DNA from: a virus
IMG/VR virus record: IMGVR_UViG_3300020470_000023
Span: 1 to 47,698 of that record
Reading direction: 5' to 3' (one strand)
DNA: 47,698 bases
The notes under the pieces are model-generated. The model was not told the DNA's origin. It worked only from the letters and a program-made list of their open reading frames with translations, and made no database searches. This document shows positions 1,945-20,523 of this stretch, piece by piece (position 1 is the stretch's first letter; the number at the start of each line of letters is the position of its first letter). The position numbers and the translations under genes are program-made.

Positions 1945-2017
1945 AGAGGTTGAAGCAAATTTTTTTACAACACATAAGTAACACAAACTCTGTACAAATC
2001 ACTCTTATTATGTTACA

Positions 2018-2155
2018 ATGAACTCACTACAATCTGCACACATTTCTATTACTCCCCCTGACCTATTTGACATTCCAGAGTTAACAGAACTTCAAGAATT
2101 ACCTGAAGAAAAGTTTAATCTGGATGAGTATATTTCAGGCAATTATGATTACTAA
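2018..2155 (+). CDS. Small acidic protein (45 aa)
   Basis: ATG at 2018 opens a 45-codon frame. The product has a Pro-rich front (ITPPDLFDIPEL) and an acidic back (ELTELQELPEEKF) ending in aromatic residues. There is no obvious ribosome site, as for several neighbours. The coherent amphipathic composition favours a real gene. Function is unknown. Confidence 0.48.
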   Translation: MNSLQSAHISITPPDLFDIPELTELQELPEEKFNLDEYISGNYDY

Positions 2156-2204
2156 TTCGTCTGTAATCTTGCACACTATTTGTTAACAACACTACTGCAA
2201 AAAA

Positions 2205-2441
2205 ATGACACTAACTGCTACACAACTTGCTGATTTACGTGATAAGTTTGCTAGTCTAATCGTGTCTGATATGAGTATTGAGACACTGGAAGATATGGCA
2301 AATGAATGTATATTAGAGGAACTAAATGACCTGAATGAGAAACAATTAGTAGACAAAGTTGAGGAGTATTATGATGAAGATTTACTGGAAGATTTGATCA
2401 GGTCAGTAACAACAACCTCTACAGATAACAGTCTATTTTAG
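2205..2441 (+). CDS. Hypothetical acidic helical protein (78 aa)
   Basis: ATG at 2205 follows an A-rich stretch rather than a Shine-Dalgarno site. The protein is predicted to be almost all helix and strongly acidic (TATQLADLRDKFASLIV; later EELNDLNEKQLVDKVEEYY). Heptad-like spacing of Leu, Ile and Val suggests a helical hairpin or dimer. I recognise the general type from cyanophage genomes but know no function. A gene-poor stretch with phased TGTGGAAA boxes follows. Confidence 0.68.
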   Translation: MTLTATQLADLRDKFASLIVSDMSIETLEDMANECILEELNDLNEKQLVDKVEEYYDEDLLEDLIRSVTTTSTDNSLF

Positions 2442-2447
2442 TTACAA

Positions 2448-2603
2448 ATGATACCAAATTACGTGCAAAAACTATTTAAAATGTATTTAAAAATGTATAT
2501 GCGTTGTTTATACATTTATCAACAAGTCTGTGGAAAAGGTATCAATTACTGTGGAAATATGCTAATTAAGTGTGGAAAACCTAGTGTAATATGCGTCACT
2601 TAA
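2448..2603 (+). CDS. Doubtful ORF (51 aa) across the TGTGGAAA repeats
   Basis: ATG at 2448 opens 51 codons. The middle carries three Cys-Gly-(Lys/Asn) triplets seven residues apart (CGKGINYCGNMLIKCGK), which is simply the in-frame reading of the 21-bp DNA repeat at 2529-2579. No ribosome site is seen and the front is low-complexity (KMYLKMYM). It may be a small Cys-rich protein or only a by-product of a regulatory DNA repeat; I lean slightly to the latter. Confidence 0.28.
   Translation: MIPNYVQKLFKMYLKMYMRCLYIYQQVCGKGINYCGNMLIKCGKPSVICVT
2516..2579. repeat. Three 21-bp-phased TGTGGAAA boxes plus TTATCAACA
   Basis: TGTGGAAAA occurs at 2529-2537 and 2571-2579, and TGTGGAAAT at 2550-2558. The start-to-start spacing is exactly 21 bp each time, about two helical turns, so all three face the same side of the helix. 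TTATCAACA at 2516-2524 is one base from the Escherichia coli DnaA box TTATCCACA, in opposite orientation. TGTGGAAAA is the complement of TTTTCCACA, the reported cyanobacterial DnaA box. The DnaA reading is inference. Confidence 0.6.
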
Positions 2604-2743
2604 ATGTCACTTTTCCTTGTGATCTTTGCGAGCATTCTAACAAGAACTCGCAGAAATGTCAATACCCCCCATTTACATTTTGTGGGGATATTACAATTTT
2701 TCAATATAACTTTATAAATACATTCGTACCACTTGACATATAG
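2591..2743 (+). CDS. Possible small Cys-rich zinc-binding protein (50 aa)
   Basis: ATG at 2591 opens 50 codons. The front half carries a C-x2-C pair (PCDLCEH, Cys10 and Cys13), followed by Cys23 and Cys31 (KCQYPPFTFCGD). That is the arrangement of a short treble-clef or zinc-ribbon fold. The back half is hydrophobic and aromatic. There is no clear ribosome site. The stop lies inside the promoter of the next gene. Four well-spaced cysteines in so short a frame favour a real product, but no function can be given. Confidence 0.45.
   Translation: MRHLNVTFPCDLCEHSNKNSQKCQYPPFTFCGDITIFQYNFINTFVPLDI
2713..2720 (+). promoter_or_regulatory. T4-type late promoter motif in the early region
   Basis: TATAAATA at 2713-2720 is the full T4 late consensus, lying 12 bp upstream of a strong sigma70-type promoter. 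It could give the next gene both early and late expression. A chance match in AT-rich DNA is possible. Confidence 0.35.
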
Positions 2744-2761
2744 TGGAGAATCGTATATAAT
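2733..2761 (+). promoter_or_regulatory. Consensus sigma70-type promoter
   Basis: TTGACA (2733-2738), a 17-base spacer, then TATAAT (2756-2761): both hexamers perfect. It should drive the gene at 2796, with transcription starting near 2768. Confidence 0.85.
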
Positions 2762-2795
2762 AAGGTTAACTTACACAAACTACCTCCCAAGTTTC

Positions 2796-2963
2796 ATGTC
2801 AGTTCTTTACACTCAAGCAACTAAAAAGCACGTAAGAGTAACACTAACTCTTGACGTACTAAATGACTTCGAAGCACGGAATATTGACTGGAGAAAAGTA
2901 TTACAATTAGAACCAGATGAGACCGTACAAAGTTACATCGAAGACAGTGAAATTGATCGGTAG
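2796..2963 (+). CDS. Small conserved phage protein (55 aa)
   Basis: I choose ATG 2796 (MSVLYTQATKKHVRVTL). The frame is open upstream to a TTG at 2733, but that TTG is the -35 element itself and the extra residues would be promoter DNA. The protein is basic at the front and acidic at the back (QLEPDETVQSYIEDSEID), with a central LDVLNDFEARNIDW. I associate it with a family of short cyanophage proteins of unknown role. A second consensus-like promoter follows its stop immediately, so it appears to be transcribed alone. Confidence 0.7.
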   Translation: MSVLYTQATKKHVRVTLTLDVLNDFEARNIDWRKVLQLEPDETVQSYIEDSEIDR

Positions 2964-2966
2964 TTC

Positions 2967-2996
2967 TTGACAGTCAGACCTTGATAAGTCTATAAA
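2967..2996 (+). promoter_or_regulatory. Sigma70-type promoter with flanking dyad
   Basis: TTGACA (2967-2972), 18 bases, then TATAAA (2991-2996). GACAGT (2969-2974) in the -35 region and ACTGTC (2996-3001) after the -10 are inverted copies, so an operator overlapping the promoter is possible. It drives the gene at 3039. Confidence 0.75.
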
Positions 2997-3038
2997 CTGT
3001 CAGTGTTAACCAAACCCTTGTAATTTACTCTCTTAATT

Positions 3039-3167
3039 ATGACTAACTCAGCAACACAGTTTGTATCATCTAACTTCGCAGAGTTTCTTCTAGAAAATGC
3101 AAACAATGGCAATGAAATCTTGGCAGTCCTCGATGACATTGTAGAGGTACAAAATACAGCACTATAA
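3039..3167 (+). CDS. Small hypothetical protein (42 aa)
   Basis: ATG at 3039 lies about 40 bases after a strong promoter and 14 bases before a perfect terminator, so it is the only candidate product of that transcript. The product (MTNSATQFVSSNFAEFLLEN at the start, then ILAVLDDIVEVQ) looks like a short amphipathic helical protein. No known domain. The dedicated promoter and terminator are the main reason to believe in it. Confidence 0.62.
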   Translation: MTNSATQFVSSNFAEFLLENANNGNEILAVLDDIVEVQNTAL

Positions 3168-3180
3168 GTATTAACAACTG

Positions 3181-3220
3181 TAGAGGCACTAAGTATTAAA
3201 CAGTGCCTCTATTCTTTTTA
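3181..3220 (+). terminator. Rho-independent terminator
   Basis: A perfect 10-bp stem, TAGAGGCACT (3181-3190) against AGTGCCTCTA (3202-3211), has an 11-base loop and is followed by TTCTTTTTATT. It closes the small-gene region. The gap to 3382 holds AT-rich DNA with a short GC-rich island (about 3270-3290, CCCGTCCGCGTTGCCG) in which I see no gene. Confidence 0.93.
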
Positions 3221-3382
3221 TTAGTTGTATATTCGTATAGCACAGTTTATGCGGTTATGTTATATTATATCCCGTCCGCGTTGCCGTTTAAAAAAAAGAA
3301 AGAGACCCTAACCTACAGAGGTGACAGATCGAGTTGTATATAAAAAAACTCCCAGAAAATTTTTTGACCTATTACTTTTTTT

Positions 3383-3928
3383 ATGGAACCTTCATCTTAT
3401 GCATTTGGTGTGCCTATATGGATAATTCCTGCTTCAAGTAATTATCATGAAAAAGAATACCCCAAGTTAATAAAAGAAGCATATAGAATAGAAAAGAATA
3501 AACCCAATAAAAATAAAGATGATGGGTGGTCTACCAATGGATATAACAGTGGTATTCTTTGCCCTAGTGAAATGATAAGAATATTTAAATACGTTTCCTC
3601 AAAAATAAATACACTTAATTTTGGATTTGACTTCTCATTAGCAGATGGGTGGTTAAATATTAATAGAAGAGGACATCACATTTTACCTCACGATCATTCT
3701 ATGTTAGGATTATCGGTAGTATTCTTTTTAACAGCAGATGATAGTAAGTTTACTTTAATCAATCCTAATCATATGCCATATACAATAGGTAAGTATTGCT
3801 TCTTTGATTATACACCAAATTGTAACGCAGGAGATGTATTAATCTTTCCTAGTAACTATACTCATTATGTTAAACCAAATGATACTGATGAGGATAGGAT
3901 TACTTCAGCATTTAATATTATAACGTAA
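3383..3928 (+). CDS. Putative 2-oxoglutarate/Fe(II)-dependent oxygenase
   Basis: A 181-residue protein of the double-stranded beta-helix oxygenase type (resembling Pfam 2OG-FeII_Oxy_5). Such enzymes use Fe(II), O2 and 2-oxoglutarate to hydroxylate a substrate. Likely iron ligands are His103 or His105 in LPHDHSMLGLSVVFF and His161 in IFPSNYTHYVKPN; Arg172 in EDRITSAFNI fits the 2-oxoglutarate anchor. The aromatic strand GWLNINRRGHH (89-99) before the first ligand is typical of the family. The exact first ligand pair is uncertain. The start lacks a Shine-Dalgarno site and follows a T-rich run. The stop shares a base with the SET-domain gene start (TAATG), so the two are coupled. The substrate is unknown: protein, nucleic acid base or sugar are all possible. 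Confidence 0.75.
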   Translation: MEPSSYAFGVPIWIIPASSNYHEKEYPKLIKEAYRIEKNKPNKNKDDGWSTNGYNSGILCPSEMIRIFKYVSSKINTLNFGFDFSLADGWLNINRRGHHILPHDHSMLGLSVVFFLTADDSKFTLINPNHMPYTIGKYCFFDYTPNCNAGDVLIFPSNYTHYVKPNDTDEDRITSAFNIIT

Positions 3929-4212
3929 TGTACCAAGCACTTCCTTCAGTATTACATATTAAAGATAGTCCTATAGCAGGTCAAGGTCTATTTGCCAAAG
4001 TTGATATATCTTCTGGTACGTCTCTTGGCATGAGTCATATTATAATAGATGAGATTATATACAGAACTCCTCTCGGTGGTTTTACTAATCACAGTGACGA
4101 TCCAAATTGTATTAAGGTAATGAATGGAAATAAATATTATATGATGACATGTAAAGATATTAAAGCAGGTGAAGAGTTATTCTTAAAGTACACCTTCTAT
4201 ACAATATCATGA
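3928..4212 (+). CDS. Minimal SET-domain protein (putative lysine methyltransferase)
   Basis: In 94 residues it carries the core marks of a SET domain, the S-adenosylmethionine-dependent protein-lysine methyltransferase fold. These are GQGLFAK (18-24, the GxGxFA entry loop), GGFTNHSDDPNC (50-61, the NHS..PN knot motif) and DIKAGEELFLKY (77-88, the GEEL..Y motif with catalytic Tyr88). Pre-SET and post-SET domains are absent and the insert is minimal, so it is near the smallest size for the fold. The start overlaps the oxygenase stop and its own stop overlaps the next start. A phage SET protein could modify a host or virion protein; the target is unknown and activity is unproven. Confidence 0.85.
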   Translation: MYQALPSVLHIKDSPIAGQGLFAKVDISSGTSLGMSHIIIDEIIYRTPLGGFTNHSDDPNCIKVMNGNKYYMMTCKDIKAGEELFLKYTFYTIS

Positions 4213-4499: not shown

Positions 4500-5270
4500 A
4501 TGGCAAAAAAAGGATTTACTGTTAAAGCATCCTCTCCCAAAGTACAAGCACCAACGTGGGATTATGATGCAATCAAAGAAAGAATGAAAGGTAAGACAAT
4601 TGTATTTTGTTTACCTGGTCGTGGTTGCTCATATATCTTTCTAAAGAATTTTGTGCAATTGTGTTTTGACATGGTGCAGAATGGTATGTCTATTCAGATA
4701 AGTCAAGACTATTCTTCTATGGTTAACTTTGCACGATGTAAAGTATTAGGTGCAAATGTATTACGTGGACCTAATCAGATACCTTGGGATGGTAAACTTC
4801 AGTATGATTATCAACTATGGATCGACTCGGATATTGTCTTTAACACAGAAAAGTTCTGGCAATTAGCAGATCTTGCAGTTCCTGCTGAAGGTGATGAAAA
4901 GGCAATTACCGCAGGTTGGTATTGCACAGAAGATGGCAAAACTACCTCAGTTGCTCACTGGCTCGAAGAAGATGATTTCCGCAAGAACGGTGGAGTTATG
5001 AATCACGAGACCTTAGAAACTATGGATAGAAGGAAGAAACCTTTTACAGTAGATTATACAGGTTTTGGTTGGGTGCTTATTAAGAAGGGTGTTTTCGAGA
5101 ATCTTGAATATCCTTGGTTTGCTCCTAAGATGCAGGTCTTTGAATCAGGTAGTGTTCAAGATATGTGTGGTGAGGATGTATCTTTCTGTTTAGATGCTAT
5201 TGAGAAAGACTATAAGATCTGGTGTGACCCTCGTATACGTGTAGGTCATGAAAAAACACGAGTAATTTAG
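4500..5270 (+). CDS. Glycosyltransferase-like protein (GT-A type)
   Basis: The 256-residue product has marks of a metal-dependent GT-A glycosyltransferase. These are an N-terminal strand TIVFCLPGRGCS (33-44), WIDSDIVF (107-114) with the DxD-type Asp109/Asp111 for metal and nucleotide-sugar, GEDVSFC (224-230) in the place of the catalytic ED motif, and a late His250 in RVGHEK. Such an enzyme would move a sugar from a nucleotide-sugar to an acceptor. In phages this may be modified DNA, a virion protein or host surface glycan; the acceptor cannot be told. Ribosome site GAAGGAGA at 4483-4490. It has its own perfect promoter while the downstream structural genes use late motifs, so it is probably expressed early. 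Confidence 0.7.
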   Translation: MAKKGFTVKASSPKVQAPTWDYDAIKERMKGKTIVFCLPGRGCSYIFLKNFVQLCFDMVQNGMSIQISQDYSSMVNFARCKVLGANVLRGPNQIPWDGKLQYDYQLWIDSDIVFNTEKFWQLADLAVPAEGDEKAITAGWYCTEDGKTTSVAHWLEEDDFRKNGGVMNHETLETMDRRKKPFTVDYTGFGWVLIKKGVFENLEYPWFAPKMQVFESGSVQDMCGEDVSFCLDAIEKDYKIWCDPRIRVGHEKTRVI

Positions 5271-7947: not shown

Positions 7948-10900
7948 ATGTCAGTAGAATCCAGAGTAAAAATCAGCTCTTTAGTAGATAATCAACTTCC
8001 TAGTTTTGTTAGGAGTGATTTTCCTTTAGTTGGTGAATTTTTATCACAATATTACCTTTCTTTAGAGGGGCAAGGATCGACTTTAGATATTGTTAAAAAT
8101 ATTGATCAATATATTAAAGTTGATAATCTAACAAACCTTACTGATTCTACTAATCTTTCAGAGAATGTAAAAGTTTCTGATAGTACGATTAATGTTGATA
8201 CTACACTCGGTTTTCCTAAAAGTTATGGTTTAATTCAGATTGATTCTGAAATTATTACATATACGGGAATAACTACTAATTCTTTTACTGGATGTGTAAG
8301 AGGATTTAGTGGAATCACCTCGTTTAGGTCTAATGACAATCCAGATGAGCTTGTCTTCTCTACTAGTGGAATTTCAACTCATTCTTCAGGAGAAGTAGTT
8401 AATAATTTAAGTGTTTTATTTTTAAAAGAATTTTTTAATAAACTTAAAAAGCAAGTAACTCCTGGATTTGAAAATAGGGAATTAAGTTCTAAAATTAATA
8501 AGAATCTTTTTATAAAACAAGCAAAAGATTTCTATTCATCTAAAGGAACAGATGATTCTTATGAAATATTGTTCAGAGCTCTTTATGGTAAAGATGTTGA
8601 AGTAATTAAACCAAGAGATTATCTATTTACTCCATCAGATGCACAATATCAAGTATCTAAGCAATTAGTTGTAAGGTCTATTGAGGGAAATCCTGAAGAT
8701 CTTATTAATCAGACTATATTTCAAGATTTCACTTCTACTGCTAATGGTGCAAGGGGATCTGTAAATAATGTTGAAAAAATTATTAGAGGAACTGAAACTT
8801 ATTATAGATTAAGTTTAGATTATGATTTTGATACTAATAATATTACTGGATTTGGAAAATTTTCTATTCATCCCTCAACAAAACTTATAACAGAAGCTTC
8901 TATTGGAGATACTGTTCTTGATGTAGATTCTACAGTTGGATTTGCTCAATCTGGAAGTTTGTCTGTAGATAATGATAACGGAACAACTTTTAATATTGAT
9001 TATACGTCTAAATCGTTAAATCAATTCTTCGGATGTTCTGGAGTTAGTCAAAATATTAAATCTAAGCAAAATATAAGAATTAATGATCATGCTTATGGTT
9101 ATGTTGGTGTAGGAACAGTTAAAATTAAATTTCAAGTAACAGGTGTTCTACAAGATCTTAAATATTCATCACCAGTTACTTATAGTGATGTTGGTGATAC
9201 TATTAGAGTAAAAACTCTTGGAAGTAATGTAAAAGGACAGTTTGGAAATAATTGGATTTTTAATATTACACCTACTTACAATATAAACGAAGTAGAAACT
9301 ATAAACAACTCAAGTTTTGTTTATTCTATCACTACTGTTGATAATAATATTTTTAATAGAGGTGATAATGGATTAATTATATTAAATGATAGTAGTGAAA
9401 TAAAAGGTGTTATTATATCAGTATTAAACTCAAAAACATTTTATATTCAAGCAGAAACTGTAGTTGATGTTGCAAAAATTTTTAAAGTAAGAAAAACTTT
9501 AGCTAAAGTAGAGGCTGAGAAATATCCAGAATTAAATGACCAAAATGCAAATGTTCAGAACGTATATGTAGATCAACAATCATATTATGTTACATCCCCA
9601 TCTCTTCCAAATTATCTTGACGAACCTATAACAACGACTGATAGGTCTGTTACATTCTCAGGAACGTTTACAGATAGTTTTAATATTGAAATTCCCAATC
9701 ATGGATTATTTTCAGGTGATTCTGTAACTTATGTTGCTGGTTCAGATACCAATAAACTTAATATTGATGAAAAAATATATTATATTAAAAAAGTTGATCA
9801 GAATAATATTAAACTTTGTAAAAGTAGATCTGATGTTGCAGGTAATTTATTCGTCTCTTTAAATGGTGTAGTTGAAGATAATAAATTAGAATTATCTATA
9901 TTTGCAGGTAAAAAATTAGCTTCTCAAAATTTAGTTAGACAAATAAAACCACCAACTAAATCTTTTAAAAAGGTTGAAACTCCTACAGGAGGAAAAACTG
10001 GTATTTTGGTTAATGGTGTAGAAATTAGTAATTATAAATCTGAAGATTATATTTTTAGTGGACCAATTCAAAGTATTGATGTAATTGGTCAAGGTGAAGA
10101 TTTTGATGTAATAAATCCTCCACTTTTAGATATACAGGACCAAGTTGGTTCTGGAGTTTCTGTATTTACTAAAGTTAGTGGAAACTTTAAAAGAATAGAA
10201 CTTGTAAGTACGGGATTTGGTTATGTAGATACTCCTACAGTAAGAATTACTGGGGGTAATGGTACTGGTGCAAAAGCTTTTGCTAAGATGAAGGAAATTA
10301 TTTGGGAAAGAGATTTCATATCAGATAAATTGGATGGTGTTAGATTATCTGAAAATCTTATCATCTTCAAGAGCCCTCATTTATTTGATAATGGAGAACA
10401 TGTAATTTATACTCCAGAAAATCAAAGAGGTATAGTAGGATTAACAACTGATGCAAAATATTTCGCAAGAACTATAGATGCTTTTGCAATATCTCTCCAT
10501 TCATCTAAGATAGATGCTATTGATAATGTTAATCCAATTTCTATATCTGATTATGGTGTAGGTGTTCAAAAATTTAGAACCGCAAACAAGAAAAAAATAG
10601 TAAGTTCTATTGAAGTTGTAAATCCTGGTATTGGATACTGTAATAATAAAACTCTAGTTAAATCTAGTGGAATTACTACTAGTTCTAATATACTTACTAT
10701 CCCTAATCACGGATATTCTACAGGAGAAAAGGTTGTTTATCAACCAACAGGAGTTCCTATAGGTGGTCTTTCTTCAGGAACTTATTATGTTAAAGCATTA
10801 TCAGCATCTACGATTAAATTAGCTGAAGTTGGTGTAGGAGATACTTTATCTAAATTTTATTTGGATAATGAACAATATGTTGGATTCAATTCCACTGGAT

Positions 10901-13900
10901 CTGGGGAGCATATATTTAATTATCCTCCGATACAAGTTTCTATAGATGGAACCATAGGTGTTACAACTTATGCTGGTCAAGATCTTAAAGCTGTTGCTCA
11001 ACCAATTGTTCGTGGAGGTATAACAAGAGTTTTTGTTAAAGATGGTGGAGTTGGTTATGGATCTTCTGATATAATTAATTATAATAGACAACCAGTTTTT
11101 CAAACTGTTACTGGAAAGGAAGCACAATTAGATATAGTTACTAATGGTGGAAGAATTGTTAAAGTTAATATTTTAAATCCAGGTTTGCAATATAATTCAC
11201 CTCCAACATTAAATATCTCTGGAGTTGGTACGGGTGCAATATTAGTTCCTATAATGTCTAATGGAACAATTAGTGCTGTTTCAGTTGCTTCTCCTGGATT
11301 GAGTTATCAGCAAGGAGAATCTGTTGTTAATGTAACCCCATCAGGTAAAGGTGCTGAGTTTAGGAGCAATCCACTATCTTGGAATATTAATAATGTTGAA
11401 AGACTAATACAAACTAAAAAAATTGAAAAAGATGATGGTGTTTTTATTAATGGAATAAATTCCAAGTATGGTATTCAATATACACATGCATTTGCTCCAA
11501 GAGATCTTAGACAAACAGTTTATGGAGTAAAACAGGTAGATGGTAAAGATGTTTTTGTTAATGATCTGTCTCTCAATAATGGAGTAGAGGTAACTGCTAC
11601 TAATCATTCTCCAATAATAGGATGGTCGTATGACGGATATCCAATATATGGACCTTATGGTTATGCAACTCCTGAAGGTGGGTTCGTTAGAATAATGAGA
11701 TCTAGTTATAAAGATCCTAACGATAATATAGAACATAGACCTAATGCATCTCTTTATCCTGCAGGATTCTTTACTCAAGATTATGAGTATAGCCGTGGTC
11801 TTGGAGATTTAGATGAGCATAATGGTAGGTTTGGAATAACTCCAGAATATCCAAATGGAACTTATGCGTATTTTACAACTATTAATCCAAATACAATAGA
11901 ATCAGTTCCACCATTTAAGTATTTTAGAAGACCAATATTCCCTTATATTTTAGGTAGCACTTATTATGGAAATCCTAATGGATATAATTTTGATTCGCAA
12001 TCAAATCAAGAAGATGTTGATTTTAACAATCCTAATAAATTCGATACTTCAGTCCAACCTTTAAGAGTTACTACTCCTTATAATTTAATATCTAATAATA
12101 CCTCTTACGATTTTATTGTAGAATCAGATAAGATTCAACCTCAACTTACAAAAGTAGATGCTATAGGTAAAGGTAAATTAGAGGGTGTTGGAATTATTAC
12201 TGGAGGTCATAGTTATCAATACGGAGATCCAGTTGTTTTTGATAATTTTGATACTGGTGGTACAGGAGCATCTGCATCAGTTAATGCTATTATAGGAAAA
12301 GAAGTACATACTGTAAGTGTTGCTAACAGTTCTTTTTCAAATGTAGAGTTTGTTTCATATGATGTAACTGGTGGGGTAATTGGATATACTACTATTCCTC
12401 ATGGATATAAACATAAAGATATAATAGAAATTGTAGGGTTAAGCACCTCAAGTCAAACAAATGGAATATTGTATTCTGTAGGAATACAAACTAATTTCTT
12501 TACGTTAACATCAGCAGTAGGAAGTACAGTTGCAACTGGTATCGTTACTTATTTTGATGTTGAAGGACATCTTGAACTTCCTTTTATTAGGGAAAATGAT
12601 GTTTTAGGTATAGGTACTGAAAAAGTAAAAGTTCTGGGATCAGATCCAGAATTATCTAGAATTAAAGTTTTAAGAAGTTACGATTCTACTGTAGGAAGTG
12701 CTCATACTGCTTTTTCTTCATTATTACAGAATCCAAGAAATTTTGTCTTTAAAAAGAGAAATAAAACTCCATTAAATTCTAGATTAAATAAACAAATTTA
12801 TTTTAATCCAGTAGATTCTTTATCTGTAGTTTCTTCATCTGGAGTTGGTATTGGCAGCACTTTAATATTCTCTAATCCAGGAACTGGTAGAACTAGTATG
12901 TGGATTCCTTCAAAAAGTGCTTATCTAAAAAATCATAATTTAAATACAGGTGATTCTTTAACATATAATGCTAATTCTGGTACTCCTATTAAAGTTAGAA
13001 TTTCTTCTTCTTCTAGTCCAATTTCATTAACTAACAATCAAGTTTTATATGCTGCTAGGATAACAAAAGATATTATAGGATTATCAACTGTTCAAGTTGG
13101 TCGAGATGCAACTGGATCTTGGGTTGGAGTTTCATCTGAATTTAGAAATTCAAGTCTTTTATATTTTGCTGGAATTGGTACAGGAATGTATCATAGTTTT
13201 GAAACAAATTTTACTAAAAATGTTAGAGGTGAAATTAATAGATTGCAAGCAACTGTTTCTACTGCATCTACTCATGGAATGAAACTTGATGATGGTATTG
13301 CTTTTGTATCACGTCCAGGTATTACTACAACTGTAAGTGTATCATATAATGATTTTAATAGAAGAATTGTTATTAATTCTAGAAATTTTGTTGCTGGTGA
13401 TGTAGATACAACCAATAACACTATTTCTATACAAGAGCATAATTTAAAAACAGGTCAAAAAGTTATTCATACTGCATCCACTTCTTCAGGTGGTTTAGTT
13501 AATAATGGAATTTATTATGTGTATGTTTTTGATTCTAATAAAATTAAACTTGCTAATCATCGACATGAAGTTTCATCTAATAACTTAAAATTTATCAATA
13601 TTAGTAGTGCATCTGCTGGAACAATTTCTCCAGTTAATCCTCCTATCACAATTCGTAAGAATGAAATAATTTATTTTGATCTCTCTGATTCTTCATTATC
13701 TTTCTTAAGAAACTCTATCAACTATCCTGCATTCGAATTTAATTTATATTCAGATTATAGTTTAAGTAGCAAATTCGAATCTACAGGAACTACTGATACA
13801 TTTGAAGTTACTAAATCAGGTAGAATTGGTATTGATACTAATGCTAATTTATCATTAAAACTTAACGATGCGATTCCATCTACATTATATTATACATTAA

Positions 13901-16900
13901 AACCAATAAATTTAGATATTAACCGTGAGGTTAAAAAAGAATTAATTGTTGATAATGAAGTAGAAGATTATAATAGTTTATATCTTCAAAATGATACATT
14001 AACAGGGTCTTATAGAATAAGTGGAATTGGATCTACAACTTTCTCTTTCTCAATTGCAACTTCTCCTAAGAAAGTTGATTTTACTGCTGATGAAGGACAA
14101 TTTAGCTATGTTACAAGTTCACGTACTGCGTTTGGACCTATTGCTAATGTTGTTTTGAATAATGGTGGTAGAAATTATAAAAGATTACCTGGTATTAGTA
14201 CTGTAACTTCAACTCTTGGGGATAAGTCGTTACTAAGTCCTTATAGTTATAGTATTGGAAGAATATCAAAAACAACTATAGAAGATATTGGATTTGATTA
14301 TTCTATTGATAATACTTTAAGGCCACAATTAAAAATTCCTCAACTCTTAAAATTAGAATCATTATTATCTCTCAATCATGTAGGAATTACTTCTGAAGGT
14401 GTAAATTACTTACAAGCACCTACTCTTTTCGTATTTGATGGGATTACTAAAAAAAGAATTACTGATGTTGATTTAAGTTACGAATTAGGTGATAAAAATG
14501 TTACTATAGTGAAAAATACAACAAGCTTGAATAATGTTGTACCTACTATTCTTCCTGTTAATAATTCTAATGGAATATCAATTTCCAATATCTCATTTAA
14601 TAATACGACAAAGGATGTTACTGTTTCTTTAGGTGCAACTTATAGTTCTATTAGTGATTTTCCAGTTACACCTGGAGATAAAATATTAATAGAGAATGTA
14701 AGTGTTGGTGTAGGAAGCACAGGTGTTGGTTACAATTCTAGTGATCATGAGTATTCATTATTTGAGGTTAAAACAACTTCTCCTGATATCGGTGGTGATA
14801 GTCCAACTGTTACTTATAATATTGGTTCTAAACTAAAATCTGGTGAAATTCCTGGTACGTTTAATGTTATTAATCCAGTAGGAACTTTAGTACCAGAAAA
14901 ATATTTTCCAAAATTTGATGTTTCTATACATGATATAAAATTCCTTAAAGGTGAGGAAGTTAATACTGCTAGTTGTAAGGGTCAGGTTGAAAGTTGGAAC
15001 ACAACTACTAATTGTTTAAAAGCTTTTTCAGATAAAGATTTTAGAGTTGGGGAACTTATTATTGGTAAATCCTCTGGTGCTCAAGGAACTATCAAAGAAG
15101 GAAGTTATTATAATGGTTTCTTTGATATAAATTCAAGTTCACTAGTTAGAGAAGGGTGGAAAACATCAAAAGGATTTATCAATGATAATTTGCAAAGATT
15201 GTCAGATAATTTCTACTATCAAAATTTCTCTTATGCAATTAAATCTCAGGTTCAATTAGCAGAATGGGATAATGCTGTTTCTTCTTTAAATCATACTGCA
15301 GGATTTAAAAAGTTTAGTGACCTTGTTATAGAAAATGATACTTTATCAAGTGAATCTGTTCCAAGTGGTATTTCAACATCTCAAAATCAAGGATCCTTTA
15401 GTGGTATAGCTGATTACATTTCTGTAATGGATTTGAATTGCATTTCAGATTTTGATCTAGCATTAGAAAAAACAATCGATGTTGGAAATGATGAATCAAA
15501 AGTTCTTTCTGATAAAATTGTTCTACAATTAAAATCACTTCAAGATTATATCGAATCTATTGGTAACAGGGTATTAGAAATAGATGATATAAGTGGATTA
15601 TTTAATGATAAACCAAGGACTGATGCATTTAATCCAGTAGATTCTTTCTTATTAGAACATGCAAGAGTTAGAAGATATATAGCATTTATTGCTGATAGAA
15701 GATATACTCAAGAAAGACAGATAATGATAGTAACCATATTGCATAATGATTCTGTTGGATATATTAACCAATATGCTTCTGTGGATACTAATGGAGATTT
15801 AGGTCAATTTGATTTTGATGTTGCTGGTACTGAAGGTAGACTTCTTTTCTATCCTACAAAGTATCAATTCAATGATTATAATGTAAGTTCTATGGGTTAT
15901 AATATTGAGGATACTGTTACGGGAATAGGAACTAGAGATCTTGGAGGTTCTGTTCATATTTCTAGTAGTGCTCAAACAATGCCACTTGGATTTAGTACTA
16001 CCACAAATGTAGTAGGAATTGCTTCTACTTATAGAGCAGCAAAAGTTGTTGTTTCTTATGCTGCTAGTGATAAGTCTTATTATGAATGCGATGAAATATC
16101 ATATGTTCATGATGGAAGTCAGGTAGAATTGATGGATTATGGTCAATTATCTACAGATCTCTTATACACCCCTGTAGGGTCTCCAGGACTTGGAACTTAC
16201 AATGCATATCTATCTGGGTCTAATGTCATAATTGACTTCACTCCGACGGTTGCAACTGCCTCTACGATTACTGTAAATACAGTTCATGTTGCTATTGGTG
16301 ATTCTTCTTCTAGTGGAGTAGGAACTGCTCTTTTAAATACTGGAAGATTGGATTCTAGAATTACATCAATATCTGCTAGTGGATCACCTACAACAAATGT
16401 TGTAGCCAAATATCCTAAGAATACCTACAGTTCTGCATATTATATTGTTGCTCTTGAAGATACTACTAATAATGAATATCAAATATCTGAGATAGCACTA
16501 GCAGATGATGGTTCTACTCCATATTTAACTGAATGGGGAGTAATTGATACTGGTGCTGGTATTGGAACATTCTATGCAAATATTGCTGGTGATTATACTC
16601 AACTTACCTTTACCCCTATAGCAAATGCTAATGTTGAAGTTAGAGTATTTCAGAATACTATGGGTAATGTTGATACGAGTATTAATGAGTTGAATAGAAT
16701 TGATTTAGAAAATGCATCTATAGAAACTGGATATGGTGTGTATGAAGGTACAGAAACTGATGTTAAACGTGCATTTGATCTTACTCATAACGAAACTCCA
16801 ATTTTCAAAAGAGGATTTGTTGGAAGTGCTGCAACTATTGTTAATGTAGCAGCAAATACAATAAGAATTCCTGGTCATTTCTATGTTAGTGGAGAAGAAT

Positions 16901-19900
16901 TAACATATACACCAGCAGCATCAGGAACGACTGCAAATATAGGTATTGTAACTGCTACTATTCCAGGTGTTGGTTCTACAGATAAACTTCCAGAAACAGT
17001 ATATGCTGTTAAGGTAAATGATTCTACCATTAAATTAGCAGCAACTGCAGAGGATGCATTAAAGGTAGTTCCAAGTCCTCTTACTCTTTCTGCTGTAGGT
17101 GTGGGAACTACTCATTCATTTACTGCGAAGAATCAAAATGCAAGAGTAATGGTGAGTATTGATAATGTAATACAATCACCATTAGTTTCTAGTGCAGTAA
17201 CTTCTAGTTTAAATGCAGAGGCTTTGCAGGTAGATGATAAAATTGAATTGGTAGGAGTAACATCTTTCTTTGGGGGAGATTTGATTAAGATTAATGATGA
17301 GATAATGAGAGTAGATTCTGTAGGATTTGGAAGTACAAATGTATTCTTAGTAAAACGTCCTTGGATGGGTACAGGAATTGCTACACATGCTGCTGGATCT
17401 TTAATAACTAAAATCAATGGAGGATATAATATTGTTGATAATACGATTAATTTCTATACTGCACCATATGGTTTGACTCCTCTTTCTACTACATCAAATG
17501 AACCCGATAATGTTGATTGGGTGGGAGTATCTACATCATCAACATTTAATGGAAGATCATTTATCAGATCTGGTACACCTGGAACAACACAAGAACCATA
17601 TAGTAAAAATCATATTTTCGATGATATTTCTTCAGGATTTACTGGATTTACTACTACATTTACTTTAACTTCTGATAAATCTAATGTTAGTGGAATATCT
17701 AGTAGTAATGCTATTATTCTTACTAATCAAATTTATCAAGGTCCAAAACGTTCTTCTGTCGTAAACGTAATTGGAAACTATGGATTAATAGAACAATCAG
17801 GTATCACTAGTATTCAATACACTGGATCGGCTTCTTCTGTTGGATCTGATCCTAATACCGCAAGTGTTCCTGTTGGTGGAGTAATTATTTCTGTAGGATC
17901 TACTCATGGAACTGGATACCAACCATTAGTAGCTGCTGGTGGTACTGCTATTGTTTCTGGATTAGGAACTATAAGTTCTATTAGTATAGGTAGTAGTGGA
18001 TCAGGATATAGAGCTGGTATTCAGACAGTTGTAAATGTTGGAGTTCAGACTGCAAGTACAGGATTACCTGCTATTGAATTTATAGGAACTGCTGCTATAA
18101 GTAATGGTAATATTGTAAGTGTTGCAATTACAAATCCAGGAACTGGTTATACTACATCAAATCCACCAGATGTTGTATTTGATAGTCCACTTTCATATTC
18201 AAATGTTCCATTAGTTTATAGTTCAGGATCATCTGGTGTTGGAACTGAAGCAAAAGTAGATATAGTTGTTGGACAAGGATCTAGTGTAATTGACTTTACT
18301 TTAACTAATACAGGTTATGGTTATGGTCAAGGTGATGTGTTGACAGTAGATATTGGAGGAATTTCTGGAATACCTACTTCAGGAACATTCAAACCATTTG
18401 AAATTGATATTCAAGAAACATATACAGATAGTTTCACTGGATGGACTGTTGGTGATTTCCAAGTATTCGATCCATTAGATAATCTATTTGACGGATCTAA
18501 TACATCATTTGCTTTAACAGTCAATAACGTTCAAACTGCAATTAAGTCTAGAGAAGGATCTGATATTAAAGTTGATATTGCTTTATTAGTATTCATTAAC
18601 GATATCTTACAGGTTCCTGGTCAAGGTTATATTTTTGATGGTGGTAGTTACATTACATTTACAGAACCACCTAAAGTAGGAGATACTTCAAAAATAGTTT
18701 TTTATAGAGGAACTGGTGATATTGATACTAGAGAAGTTGATATATTAGAAACGATTAAAGTTGGGGACAATGTAAGATTGCAAGACGATAATCAATTCTA
18801 TGATGAATTGAATAGAAGTGTTACTAAAATAAATTCTACTGATACTATAACAACCAATATTTACCCTGGTCCTGGTATTAATACTGATCAATCTTATAGT
18901 AGAGCATTATACTGGTGTAAACAAACTGAGGATAGATTTATTAACAATAATAGTGTTCCTAAAACAAGAACGGAACTTGAAACCTTAGTTTATCCTAATA
19001 CAAATTTAATACAACCAGTAGGTCTTGGTTCTACAGTAATATTTGTTGAAAATGTAAAAACCTTCTTTGATAGTTCTAAAGAAAATTATAATGCTCAAAA
19101 TAAAGTAAGAATAGCATCTCAGGATACAATTGTAGGAGCAATTGGTACTGCTATTGTTTCATCTGCTGGTACTATTACCTCTATTAGTGTTTCTAATATA
19201 GGACTTGGTTATACAGTAGCACCTGATGTTATTATTGGTACTTATAATTTATTTGATACTCAAGTTGTTGGGTTACAAACTTCCGATGTTTTGACAAGAG
19301 ATTATGGTTTCCGTATTAGAGAACCTGGATCTGGAACTGGTGATAATGGAGGATTTGCTTTTGGTACGAGTTATCTTGCTGGAGATAGTAATTCTAGTGA
19401 TAGATGGGCTACTTTAACACCAGTTGATACTACAGGGGCTAGATCAATAACTATCCGTGCTTGGAGAGGTGATGATACTAATGGAGGTGAAGCACCTGAT
19501 TATGATCATGGAACAGTTCCTGGTGGAGGAGAAGGAGGAGAAAGTTTGGTTTTATTCTATCAAACTCCTACAATGCCTTCTGCCCTAAGAATTGATGTAA
19601 ATCCTACTACATTAGTAGGAACAGGAAATACTGATGATTATATTCTTATTACTGCAGGAAAATCTAATACATCTACAGGAACAAGTCCTGCTCCACTAGA
19701 TTATACTTTACCTTTACCTGAATATGCTAGAGTTGGTATTGTTAGTTTCTCCTTTAGAGCAGTAGCAGATCCTGGTTATCCAAGTATCTATGATCACTAT
19801 GGTATAGAAAAGGTAACATTCTCAACTGGAATAGCTCCTGCTACTGCAACTGCTACTATATCTTCTGGATCTATTGATGCGGTTACAGTTTCTTATGGTG

Positions 19901-20523
19901 GAACTGGATATTTCCAATCTGAACCACCTCCAGTTTTATTCGGACAACCAAAACCTTCTGGATATATAGAAGAAATTTCTGATGTAAGTTACTCTGGAGA
20001 TTTTGGAATTATATCAGGAGTTTCTACTACTTCTGTTGGGGTTGCTTCTACTGGTATTGTATTCGATTTATTAATTCCAGATGATTCATATTTAAGAGAT
20101 GCATCTATTGTAGGAACAGCTATTACTATAAGTGGAATACAAACAGGATACTATTTTGTAGTTTCTAATAGTAACATAGGTAACGGTGTTACTTCTTTAT
20201 ATCAAAATAGTTCTACTGTTAGTGCTGGATCCACTTTCCTAGATAATGTTTATGAAGTTGCTGCAGTTTCTATTGGTCAAACAAATGGAATTGGAGTTGG
20301 AATGACACATCTTGCTCAAGTAACTGTAAGTGTTAAAGATTATAATGGATTGAGTGGACTTGGACATAGTGAATTCTTTGGAGAATATTCTTGGGGTAGA
20401 ATTGCTGCTCCAAGCAGAACAACTCCTAAGAGTTTTGCTACATATAATAATGGTATAATTGGTGTATCTACTTCTCCTACAGTGGAGAGAGTAAATCCAC
20501 TTAGATTCCTAAATTATAATTAA
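7948..20523 (+). CDS. gp7: Giant baseplate wedge protein at the gp7 position (4191 aa)
   Basis: Lying between gp6 and gp8, it occupies the T4 gene 7 slot but is about four times longer than T4 gp7 (1032). The first 250 residues look like the wedge part (SDFPLVGEFLSQYYLSLEGQ; KDFYSSKGTDDSYEILFRAL; GKDVEVIKPRDYLF). The rest is a long beta-rich string: about a dozen Gly-Tyr 'GxGYxxxP' units, six 'HxLxxGDxVxY...YYV...IKL' units, three 'VDSTxGF..I.IDxE.ITY' units and two 'HDGS...YG' units (about 2690-2790 and 2830-2905). A YHYH domain lies at about 1171-1313 (HSPIIGWSYDGYPIYGPYGY; LDEHNGRFGITPEYPNGTY). A possible jelly-roll domain is at about 3784-3962. No internal stop or frameshift is seen. It likely projects from the baseplate and may contact the host surface (inference). 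Confidence 0.82.
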   Translation: MSVESRVKISSLVDNQLPSFVRSDFPLVGEFLSQYYLSLEGQGSTLDIVKNIDQYIKVDNLTNLTDSTNLSENVKVSDSTINVDTTLGFPKSYGLIQIDSEIITYTGITTNSFTGCVRGFSGITSFRSNDNPDELVFSTSGISTHSSGEVVNNLSVLFLKEFFNKLKKQVTPGFENRELSSKINKNLFIKQAKDFYSSKGTDDSYEILFRALYGKDVEVIKPRDYLFTPSDAQYQVSKQLVVRSIEGNPEDLINQTIFQDFTSTANGARGSVNNVEKIIRGTETYYRLSLDYDFDTNNITGFGKFSIHPSTKLITEASIGDTVLDVDSTVGFAQSGSLSVDNDNGTTFNIDYTSKSLNQFFGCSGVSQNIKSKQNIRINDHAYGYVGVGTVKIKFQVTGVLQDLKYSSPVTYSDVGDTIRVKTLGSNVKGQFGNNWIFNITPTYNINEVETINNSSFVYSITTVDNNIFNRGDNGLIILNDSSEIKGVIISVLNSKTFYIQAETVVDVAKIFKVRKTLAKVEAEKYPELNDQNANVQNVYVDQQSYYVTSPSLPNYLDEPITTTDRSVTFSGTFTDSFNIEIPNHGLFSGDSVTYVAGSDTNKLNIDEKIYYIKKVDQNNIKLCKSRSDVAGNLFVSLNGVVEDNKLELSIFAGKKLASQNLVRQIKPPTKSFKKVETPTGGKTGILVNGVEISNYKSEDYIFSGPIQSIDVIGQGEDFDVINPPLLDIQDQVGSGVSVFTKVSGNFKRIELVSTGFGYVDTPTVRITGGNGTGAKAFAKMKEIIWERDFISDKLDGVRLSENLIIFKSPHLFDNGEHVIYTPENQRGIVGLTTDAKYFARTIDAFAISLHSSKIDAIDNVNPISISDYGVGVQKFRTANKKKIVSSIEVVNPGIGYCNNKTLVKSSGITTSSNILTIPNHGYSTGEKVVYQPTGVPIGGLSSGTYYVKALSASTIKLAEVGVGDTLSKFYLDNEQYVGFNSTGSGEHIFNYPPIQVSIDGTIGVTTYAGQDLKAVAQPIVRGGITRVFVKDGGVGYGSSDIINYNRQPVFQTVTGKEAQLDIVTNGGRIVKVNILNPGLQYNSPPTLNISGVGTGAILVPIMSNGTISAVSVASPGLSYQQGESVVNVTPSGKGAEFRSNPLSWNINNVERLIQTKKIEKDDGVFINGINSKYGIQYTHAFAPRDLRQTVYGVKQVDGKDVFVNDLSLNNGVEVTATNHSPIIGWSYDGYPIYGPYGYATPEGGFVRIMRSSYKDPNDNIEHRPNASLYPAGFFTQDYEYSRGLGDLDEHNGRFGITPEYPNGTYAYFTTINPNTIESVPPFKYFRRPIFPYILGSTYYGNPNGYNFDSQSNQEDVDFNNPNKFDTSVQPLRVTTPYNLISNNTSYDFIVESDKIQPQLTKVDAIGKGKLEGVGIITGGHSYQYGDPVVFDNFDTGGTGASASVNAIIGKEVHTVSVANSSFSNVEFVSYDVTGGVIGYTTIPHGYKHKDIIEIVGLSTSSQTNGILYSVGIQTNFFTLTSAVGSTVATGIVTYFDVEGHLELPFIRENDVLGIGTEKVKVLGSDPELSRIKVLRSYDSTVGSAHTAFSSLLQNPRNFVFKKRNKTPLNSRLNKQIYFNPVDSLSVVSSSGVGIGSTLIFSNPGTGRTSMWIPSKSAYLKNHNLNTGDSLTYNANSGTPIKVRISSSSSPISLTNNQVLYAARITKDIIGLSTVQVGRDATGSWVGVSSEFRNSSLLYFAGIGTGMYHSFETNFTKNVRGEINRLQATVSTASTHGMKLDDGIAFVSRPGITTTVSVSYNDFNRRIVINSRNFVAGDVDTTNNTISIQEHNLKTGQKVIHTASTSSGGLVNNGIYYVYVFDSNKIKLANHRHEVSSNNLKFINISSASAGTISPVNPPITIRKNEIIYFDLSDSSLSFLRNSINYPAFEFNLYSDYSLSSKFESTGTTDTFEVTKSGRIGIDTNANLSLKLNDAIPSTLYYTLKPINLDINREVKKELIVDNEVEDYNSLYLQNDTLTGSYRISGIGSTTFSFSIATSPKKVDFTADEGQFSYVTSSRTAFGPIANVVLNNGGRNYKRLPGISTVTSTLGDKSLLSPYSYSIGRISKTTIEDIGFDYSIDNTLRPQLKIPQLLKLESLLSLNHVGITSEGVNYLQAPTLFVFDGITKKRITDVDLSYELGDKNVTIVKNTTSLNNVVPTILPVNNSNGISISNISFNNTTKDVTVSLGATYSSISDFPVTPGDKILIENVSVGVGSTGVGYNSSDHEYSLFEVKTTSPDIGGDSPTVTYNIGSKLKSGEIPGTFNVINPVGTLVPEKYFPKFDVSIHDIKFLKGEEVNTASCKGQVESWNTTTNCLKAFSDKDFRVGELIIGKSSGAQGTIKEGSYYNGFFDINSSSLVREGWKTSKGFINDNLQRLSDNFYYQNFSYAIKSQVQLAEWDNAVSSLNHTAGFKKFSDLVIENDTLSSESVPSGISTSQNQGSFSGIADYISVMDLNCISDFDLALEKTIDVGNDESKVLSDKIVLQLKSLQDYIESIGNRVLEIDDISGLFNDKPRTDAFNPVDSFLLEHARVRRYIAFIADRRYTQERQIMIVTILHNDSVGYINQYASVDTNGDLGQFDFDVAGTEGRLLFYPTKYQFNDYNVSSMGYNIEDTVTGIGTRDLGGSVHISSSAQTMPLGFSTTTNVVGIASTYRAAKVVVSYAASDKSYYECDEISYVHDGSQVELMDYGQLSTDLLYTPVGSPGLGTYNAYLSGSNVIIDFTPTVATASTITVNTVHVAIGDSSSSGVGTALLNTGRLDSRITSISASGSPTTNVVAKYPKNTYSSAYYIVALEDTTNNEYQISEIALADDGSTPYLTEWGVIDTGAGIGTFYANIAGDYTQLTFTPIANANVEVRVFQNTMGNVDTSINELNRIDLENASIETGYGVYEGTETDVKRAFDLTHNETPIFKRGFVGSAATIVNVAANTIRIPGHFYVSGEELTYTPAASGTTANIGIVTATIPGVGSTDKLPETVYAVKVNDSTIKLAATAEDALKVVPSPLTLSAVGVGTTHSFTAKNQNARVMVSIDNVIQSPLVSSAVTSSLNAEALQVDDKIELVGVTSFFGGDLIKINDEIMRVDSVGFGSTNVFLVKRPWMGTGIATHAAGSLITKINGGYNIVDNTINFYTAPYGLTPLSTTSNEPDNVDWVGVSTSSTFNGRSFIRSGTPGTTQEPYSKNHIFDDISSGFTGFTTTFTLTSDKSNVSGISSSNAIILTNQIYQGPKRSSVVNVIGNYGLIEQSGITSIQYTGSASSVGSDPNTASVPVGGVIISVGSTHGTGYQPLVAAGGTAIVSGLGTISSISIGSSGSGYRAGIQTVVNVGVQTASTGLPAIEFIGTAAISNGNIVSVAITNPGTGYTTSNPPDVVFDSPLSYSNVPLVYSSGSSGVGTEAKVDIVVGQGSSVIDFTLTNTGYGYGQGDVLTVDIGGISGIPTSGTFKPFEIDIQETYTDSFTGWTVGDFQVFDPLDNLFDGSNTSFALTVNNVQTAIKSREGSDIKVDIALLVFINDILQVPGQGYIFDGGSYITFTEPPKVGDTSKIVFYRGTGDIDTREVDILETIKVGDNVRLQDDNQFYDELNRSVTKINSTDTITTNIYPGPGINTDQSYSRALYWCKQTEDRFINNNSVPKTRTELETLVYPNTNLIQPVGLGSTVIFVENVKTFFDSSKENYNAQNKVRIASQDTIVGAIGTAIVSSAGTITSISVSNIGLGYTVAPDVIIGTYNLFDTQVVGLQTSDVLTRDYGFRIREPGSGTGDNGGFAFGTSYLAGDSNSSDRWATLTPVDTTGARSITIRAWRGDDTNGGEAPDYDHGTVPGGGEGGESLVLFYQTPTMPSALRIDVNPTTLVGTGNTDDYILITAGKSNTSTGTSPAPLDYTLPLPEYARVGIVSFSFRAVADPGYPSIYDHYGIEKVTFSTGIAPATATATISSGSIDAVTVSYGGTGYFQSEPPPVLFGQPKPSGYIEEISDVSYSGDFGIISGVSTTSVGVASTGIVFDLLIPDDSYLRDASIVGTAITISGIQTGYYFVVSNSNIGNGVTSLYQNSSTVSAGSTFLDNVYEVAAVSIGQTNGIGVGMTHLAQVTVSVKDYNGLSGLGHSEFFGEYSWGRIAAPSRTTPKSFATYNNGIIGVSTSPTVERVNPLRFLNYN

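Follow-up and report, generated by a model that had tools for sequence, protein, structure and literature searches.

A phased host-type DnaA-box array within an origin-like element upstream of gp102 in T4-like cyanophages

The window, i.e. the whole 47.7-kb stretch of DNA analysed here, matches T4-like cyanophages (Kyanoviridae), with a downstream gene order of gp102 (4500–5270), gp25, gp6 and gp7 that is also that of S-SM2, Bellamy and P-SSM2. Upstream of gp102 it carries an array of host-type DnaA boxes within an origin-like element, and for the gp102-bearing branch of these phages we give roughly even weight to this element being a replication origin that recruits host DnaA. Judged from sequence comparison, DnaA probably binds the array, and initiation of replication at the element stands at about an even chance. 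Present in the sequences themselves are the array, its conservation at the DNA level, its helical phase and fixed place, the AT-rich repeats, a promoter with its start sequence, and a likeness to host oriC arrays. The parts follow each other in the order AT-rich TTAAAAA repeats, inverted box, array, leftward promoter and rightward promoters; an earlier, sequence-only reading of this DNA covered neither the AT-rich repeats nor any of the promoters, conserved leftward or divergent rightward. The features are as follows:

2448–2603, + strand: open frame that spans the boxes, not regarded as a gene (codon-position pattern; no PHROG match)
2464–2515, no strand: AT-rich stretch, candidate unwinding element of iterated TTAAAA units, with repeat units TTTAAAATGTAT (2475–2486) and TTAAAAATGTAT (2487–2498)
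2516–2524, + strand: inverted DnaA-like box TTATCAACA (alignment columns 101–109)
2529–2537, − strand: DnaA box 1, TTTTCCACA (alignment and motif search)
2550–2558, − strand: DnaA box 2, ATTTCCACA, 21 bp from box 1
2571–2579, − strand: DnaA box 3, TTTTCCACA, 21 bp from box 2
2613–2633, − strand: region where the leftward transcript would start, GCTCGCAAAGATCACAAGG, kept across 23 aligned sequences
2662–2634, − strand: leftward sigma-70 promoter TTGACA-N17-TAGAAT, its −10 preceded by TG (conserved hexamers)
2713–2720, + strand: TATAAATA, one of three copies in the window of a T4-like motif for late promoters (see PMC2984593)
2733–2761, + strand: perfect rightward sigma-70 promoter TTGACA-N17-TATAAT (promoter scan)
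2796–2963, + strand: small gene, phrog_12516, served by the rightward promoters (PHROG match)

The boxes and cyanobacterial DnaA sites

Copies of TGTGGAAA are located at 2529–2536, 2550–2557 and 2571–2578 on the + strand, exactly 21 bp apart, which confirmed the three boxes of one orientation, as well as the inverted TTATCAACA at 2516, described in the sequence-only reading. The one further copy that it gave, at 29687, was also found, with none elsewhere in the window; four copies in 47.7 kb compare with 2.7 expected, and hence there is no excess of single copies. Three of the aligned relatives have TTTTCCACA in place of TTATCAACA at the 2516–2524 position, and the short non-coding stretch holds several matches to TTTTCCACA or near variants, as a cyanobacterial-type DnaA-box cluster does. 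The complement of the box had been named as the reported cyanobacterial DnaA box, and the literature agrees, as TTTTCCACA is the published box (PMC6323995, PMC4674748), while domain IV of Cyanothece DnaA binds cooperatively to, and gives footprints on, an oriC with TTTTCCACA boxes and another that contains a TTATCAACA box (PMC4674748).

A scan of bacterial genomes for the triplet gave at least 117 loci, and among the matches listed most were cyanobacterial and non-coding. Four cyanobacterial arrays among these listed matches were located at about 300 bp from dnaN; inverted boxes accompany them, and the CTACTACTA trio was in view at three of the four. Apart from those for dnaN and dnaA, the probes came from the loci, and the dnaN matches of 54–69% in the four loci are safe identifications. 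The same 21-bp triplets are thus found in cyanobacterial chromosomes, in at least four cases close to dnaN, which supports the earlier interpretation as a DnaA-box cluster. Also among the matches listed, 21-bp TGTGGAAA triplets were seen beside pth (L190, L244, L249, L250, L283, L290, L293), beside hemJ (L208, L217, L225, L237, L281, L294, L299) and beside an HD-GYP gene (L203, L240, L252, L267). These places recur, the neighbouring gene differing by lineage; cyanobacterial 21-bp arrays are hence not confined to dnaN, and those elsewhere may represent unrecognised oriCs or DnaA regulatory sites.

In probable Prochlorococcus genomes, TTCCACA boxes and a trio immediately precede dnaN; one of these genomes shows two copies of the box at a distance of 9 bp, and no 21-bp array was found in the dnaN region of these genomes. 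The order in these genomes (L330 1–60, L331 1–60 and L335 1345–1380) is TTCCACA boxes, the ACTACTACTACTA DnaA-trio, an AT-rich stretch and dnaN. Plasmid pSOE2 of Candidatus Pantoea edessiphila has exact 21-bp iterons, TGTGGAAAAAACAGCATATCC, in long succession (L198 53–270 and 4154–4329), the same core and period being used there independently. No DnaA C-terminal domain was detected in 15 complete cyanophage genomes (S-SM2 included) and four contigs, and host DnaA would therefore be the binder.

Conservation as DNA and spread among cyanophages

The earlier reading had cautioned that the frame 2448–2603 competes with the boxes. An open frame is indeed present, both in the window and in its closest relative (L006/L041), and the S-SM2 annotation has a 34-codon hypothetical gene over its boxes, but a cysteine-glycine protein repeat encoded by this frame is very improbable. 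Differences from L006/L041 are spread 8/8/8 across the three codon positions, and the codon changes comprise 16 nonsynonymous and 2 synonymous ones, none within the boxes; the frame has no PHROG match, the boxes of other relatives are read in varying frames or across stops, and inverted boxes and spacings of 11 and 32 bp are incompatible with codon repeats. The test proposed with the sequence-only reading, i.e. whether boxes and spacing are kept while the reading frame is not, came out in favour of DNA, and by these comparisons the array is conserved as DNA, not as protein. The hypothetical gene over the S-SM2 boxes, SSM2_086 (S-SM2 57997–58101; L031 2990–3094), is probably a DNA element and not a gene. 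A second small frame (2591–2743), kept in relatives by tblastn, was rejected as a gene, since the conserved leftward promoter together with a fixed spacing accounts for it, and it lacks a PHROG match.

A blind scan of 2.9 million IMG/VR viral contigs with the triplet pattern (24 fixed bases) found 28 contigs with the exact triplet at 21-bp spacing, 15 with it at 22 bp and a single one at 20 bp. The 28 contigs at 21 bp against one at 20 bp bear out the earlier statement that the phased triplet is unlikely to arise by chance. In 18 of the 28, the array was positioned 0.8–5.9 kb upstream of a same-strand gp102, which gp25 and gp6 accompany in most cases, and several of the remaining contigs are near-identical short pieces of these gp102-bearing ones; the triplets of L012 and L016 lie within long open frames and look unrelated. 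Among the newly fetched contigs with 22-bp spacing, five have the array at the same cyanophage locus.

An unbiased sample of 80 loci was fetched by gp102 protein, irrespective of boxes, and contained 20 clusters of at least two boxes upstream of gp102, versus 2 downstream of it, where the DNA covered was almost three times as long; for 150 anagrams of the box used as control words, the mean upstream of gp102 was 0.4 clusters, with a maximum of 6. A cluster was present in 16 of the 48 loci with at least 1.5 kb upstream of gp102, and in none of the other 32. Since IMG/VR contains near-duplicates, the numbers from this sample count sequences and not independent events. Distances between neighbouring boxes peak at 11–12 and 21–22 bp for direct pairs, and at 11, 21–23 and 32 bp for inverted pairs, and these spacings place the boxes on one helical face across different reading frames, in line with what had been proposed for the window (distances are mostly 11–12, 21–22 or 32 bp).

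Bellamy and SynMITS9220M01 have kept the AT-rich repeats and the leftward start motif, and have no TGTGG boxes. Syn9, S-PM2, P-SSM4, S-SM1, S-ShM2, Syn1 and P-HM2 gave no gp102 match in a search that had no positive control, and matches to the start motif at chance level only. At the same locus in S-CAM9 (L141, just left of 45.1 kb), several direct GTCTTGTGTAAAGTGCTC repeats precede the conserved start sequence, with no TGTGGAAA boxes.

The AT-rich stretch and the promoters

The region 2460–2519 is 80% AT and belongs to the top 2% of 60-bp windows, with GTTGTTTATAC (2503–2513) invariant in an alignment of seven sequences. Iterations of TTAAAAA about 11 bp apart, left of the array, are common to most relatives of this branch, and TTAAA reaches a density of 9.7 per kb in the element versus 3.0 in whole relative loci, with a spacing of 10–12 bp. 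Over all 18 arrays, the AT excess upstream was not significant (p 0.06 and 0.17). As expected of an oriC, the DnaA boxes adjoin a candidate AT-rich unwinding element, the AT excess being clear in this branch and weaker at other array loci.

The promoter at 2662–2634 is the only leftward one in the window with TTGACA and 11/12 matches, and the relatives have perfect or near-perfect hexamers at this position, with a perfect TATAAT in several; a conserved start sequence near GCTCGCTAAGATCACAAG is located downstream of it. No leftward gene was found behind this promoter in the window, where the surrounding genes run right, and the predicted leftward transcript would pass through the boxes and then the AT-rich repeats, meeting no gene. 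Across the 48 gp102 loci, promoter and box cluster showed no significant association.

A hairpin or pseudoknot RNA at about 2615–2655 (inverted GTGAT/ATCAC and GCGAG/CTCGC) was considered and rejected, as pair counts were no better than those of shuffles, no consensus structure was predicted, and the region is explained as leftward promoter. Rfam gave no match in the element, and weak sub-threshold hits elsewhere in 2000–3400 were taken as chance. The single-strand DNA fold of 2600–2720 in the window is stable (z −3.8), and there may be local structure in this one phage. Further to the right, the small protein encoded at 3928–4212, between a 2OG-Fe(II) oxygenase and gp102, resembles a short SET-domain protein by eye and has a PHROG match, and a single open frame of 4191 codons (7948–20523) occupies the position of gp7, the baseplate wedge initiator.

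Likeness to known origins and alternative explanations

A T4 origin maps upstream of gene 25. Minimal T4 oriF and oriG (ori(uvsY) and ori(34)) consist of a promoter and a downstream A+T-rich unwinding element (PMC3016281), and the cyanophage element likewise has a promoter firing into an A+T-rich stretch, with an all-phage replisome available and gene 25 downstream. It differs in that its promoter is of the host sigma-70 type with TTGACA and not a MotA-dependent middle promoter, cyanomyoviruses being without motA (PMC2984593), in that a DnaA-box array is placed between promoter and AT-rich stretch, and in that its R-loop is putative. With cyanobacterial oriC the element shares the box, the 21-bp triplet (in some Pseudanabaenaceae-type oriCs among the matches listed), an inverted box facing the array and AT-rich repeats alongside. 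Unlike oriC, it has no dnaA or dnaN as neighbour, its neighbours being small phage genes and gp102, and its promoter fires through the array; the DnaA-trio, present in host oriC, was found in none of the cyanophage elements, and in the oriC of the probable hosts the boxes are closely set (at a distance of 9 bp where two full copies were seen) without the 21-bp array.

Plasmid iteron origins, such as that with the 21-bp iterons of pSOE2, resemble the element in having direct repeats phased at about two helical turns and adjoining AT-rich DNA, but the phage conserves only the 8–9 bp box, which is the host DnaA box, with the rest of the 21 bp varying, and no Rep gene was found beside the phage array. 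Sites for DnaA titration of the datA type are also DnaA-box clusters outside oriC, whereas the phage cluster has a fixed genomic position and comes together with AT-rich repeats and a conserved promoter. In kind, this candidate origin is a variation on known ones and does not represent a new type of system.

As the element combines the make-up of T4 oriF/oriG with that of oriC, we favour a transcription-primed phage origin that is DnaA-recruiting or DnaA-gated. In such an origin, host DnaA would form an oligomer on the helically phased boxes (2516–2579) and strain the adjoining AT-rich repeats (2464–2515), while host RNA polymerase, starting from the leftward sigma-70 promoter (2662–2634), would transcribe through the array into the AT-rich stretch. 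The untranslated leftward RNA could then persist as an R-loop and prime phage DNA synthesis, as at T4 oriF, after which the phage replisome would take over. Counted against an origin are the missing DnaA-trio, the absence of boxes (not of the promoter) in some relatives, and the GC skew, which had been suggested as a check in the sequence-only reading and showed no turn at the element in four complete relatives, being positive nearly throughout and following transcription. The missing clusters in 32 of the 48 gp102 loci, the lack of a significant association between promoter and cluster, the close boxes (and no 21-bp array) beside dnaN in the probable Prochlorococcus genomes and the non-significant AT excess over all 18 arrays weigh against it too. 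Since the boxes are less constant than the promoter and AT-rich repeats (Bellamy, SynMITS9220M01; no association of promoter and cluster), they may be an accessory layer of the element. A hybrid origin, in which a T4-style transcription-primed unwinding element is joined to a host-oriC-style DnaA-box array and phage initiation depends on or competes for host DnaA, is a possibility to which we give somewhat less than even weight; no such use of DnaA by T4-like phages was found in the literature searched.

DnaA is also able to act as a transcription factor, and the boxes immediately follow the leftward promoter and precede the early and late rightward promoters. DnaA bound some 50–100 bp downstream of the leftward start could thus block or time a leftward antisense or regulatory RNA, and perhaps influence the divergent rightward operon, with no replication start involved; the cyanobacterial arrays that neighbour pth, hemJ and HD-GYP genes, and not dnaN, are in keeping with such a switch. 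It would leave the adjoining AT-rich iterations superfluous, however, and neither a leftward gene nor an Rfam RNA was found for it to control, and we regard it as unlikely. The location upstream of promoters, and a box number that differs among relatives as it does for operators, would also suit a phage- or host-encoded regulator other than DnaA that happens to use TGTGGAAA, but DnaA sites in cyanobacterial oriC show the same box, the same TTATCAACA variant and the same 21-bp arrangement, which makes such an operator decidedly improbable. We consider a DnaA sink slightly more doubtful again: here the boxes would titrate host DnaA and stop initiation at the host chromosome, their nearness to promoters being incidental. 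The five or more boxes of several relatives (L011, L017, L027) agree with a sink, and phage DNA, and with it the sites, would multiply during infection; yet three boxes per genome are few against the host's own sites, and a sink needs neither helical phase, nor a fixed place, nor AT-rich and promoter neighbours, all of which are conserved.

Among cyanomyoviruses, Syn9 alone has a predicted single theta origin, and the same source left undecided whether it is common to others (PMC2984593). The element described here represents a precise candidate origin of 300 bp, with a position conserved across a large branch of these phages. Involvement of DnaA would tie phage replication to the initiator of the host cell cycle, and would bear on how infection of abundant ocean phototrophs depends on light and cycle.
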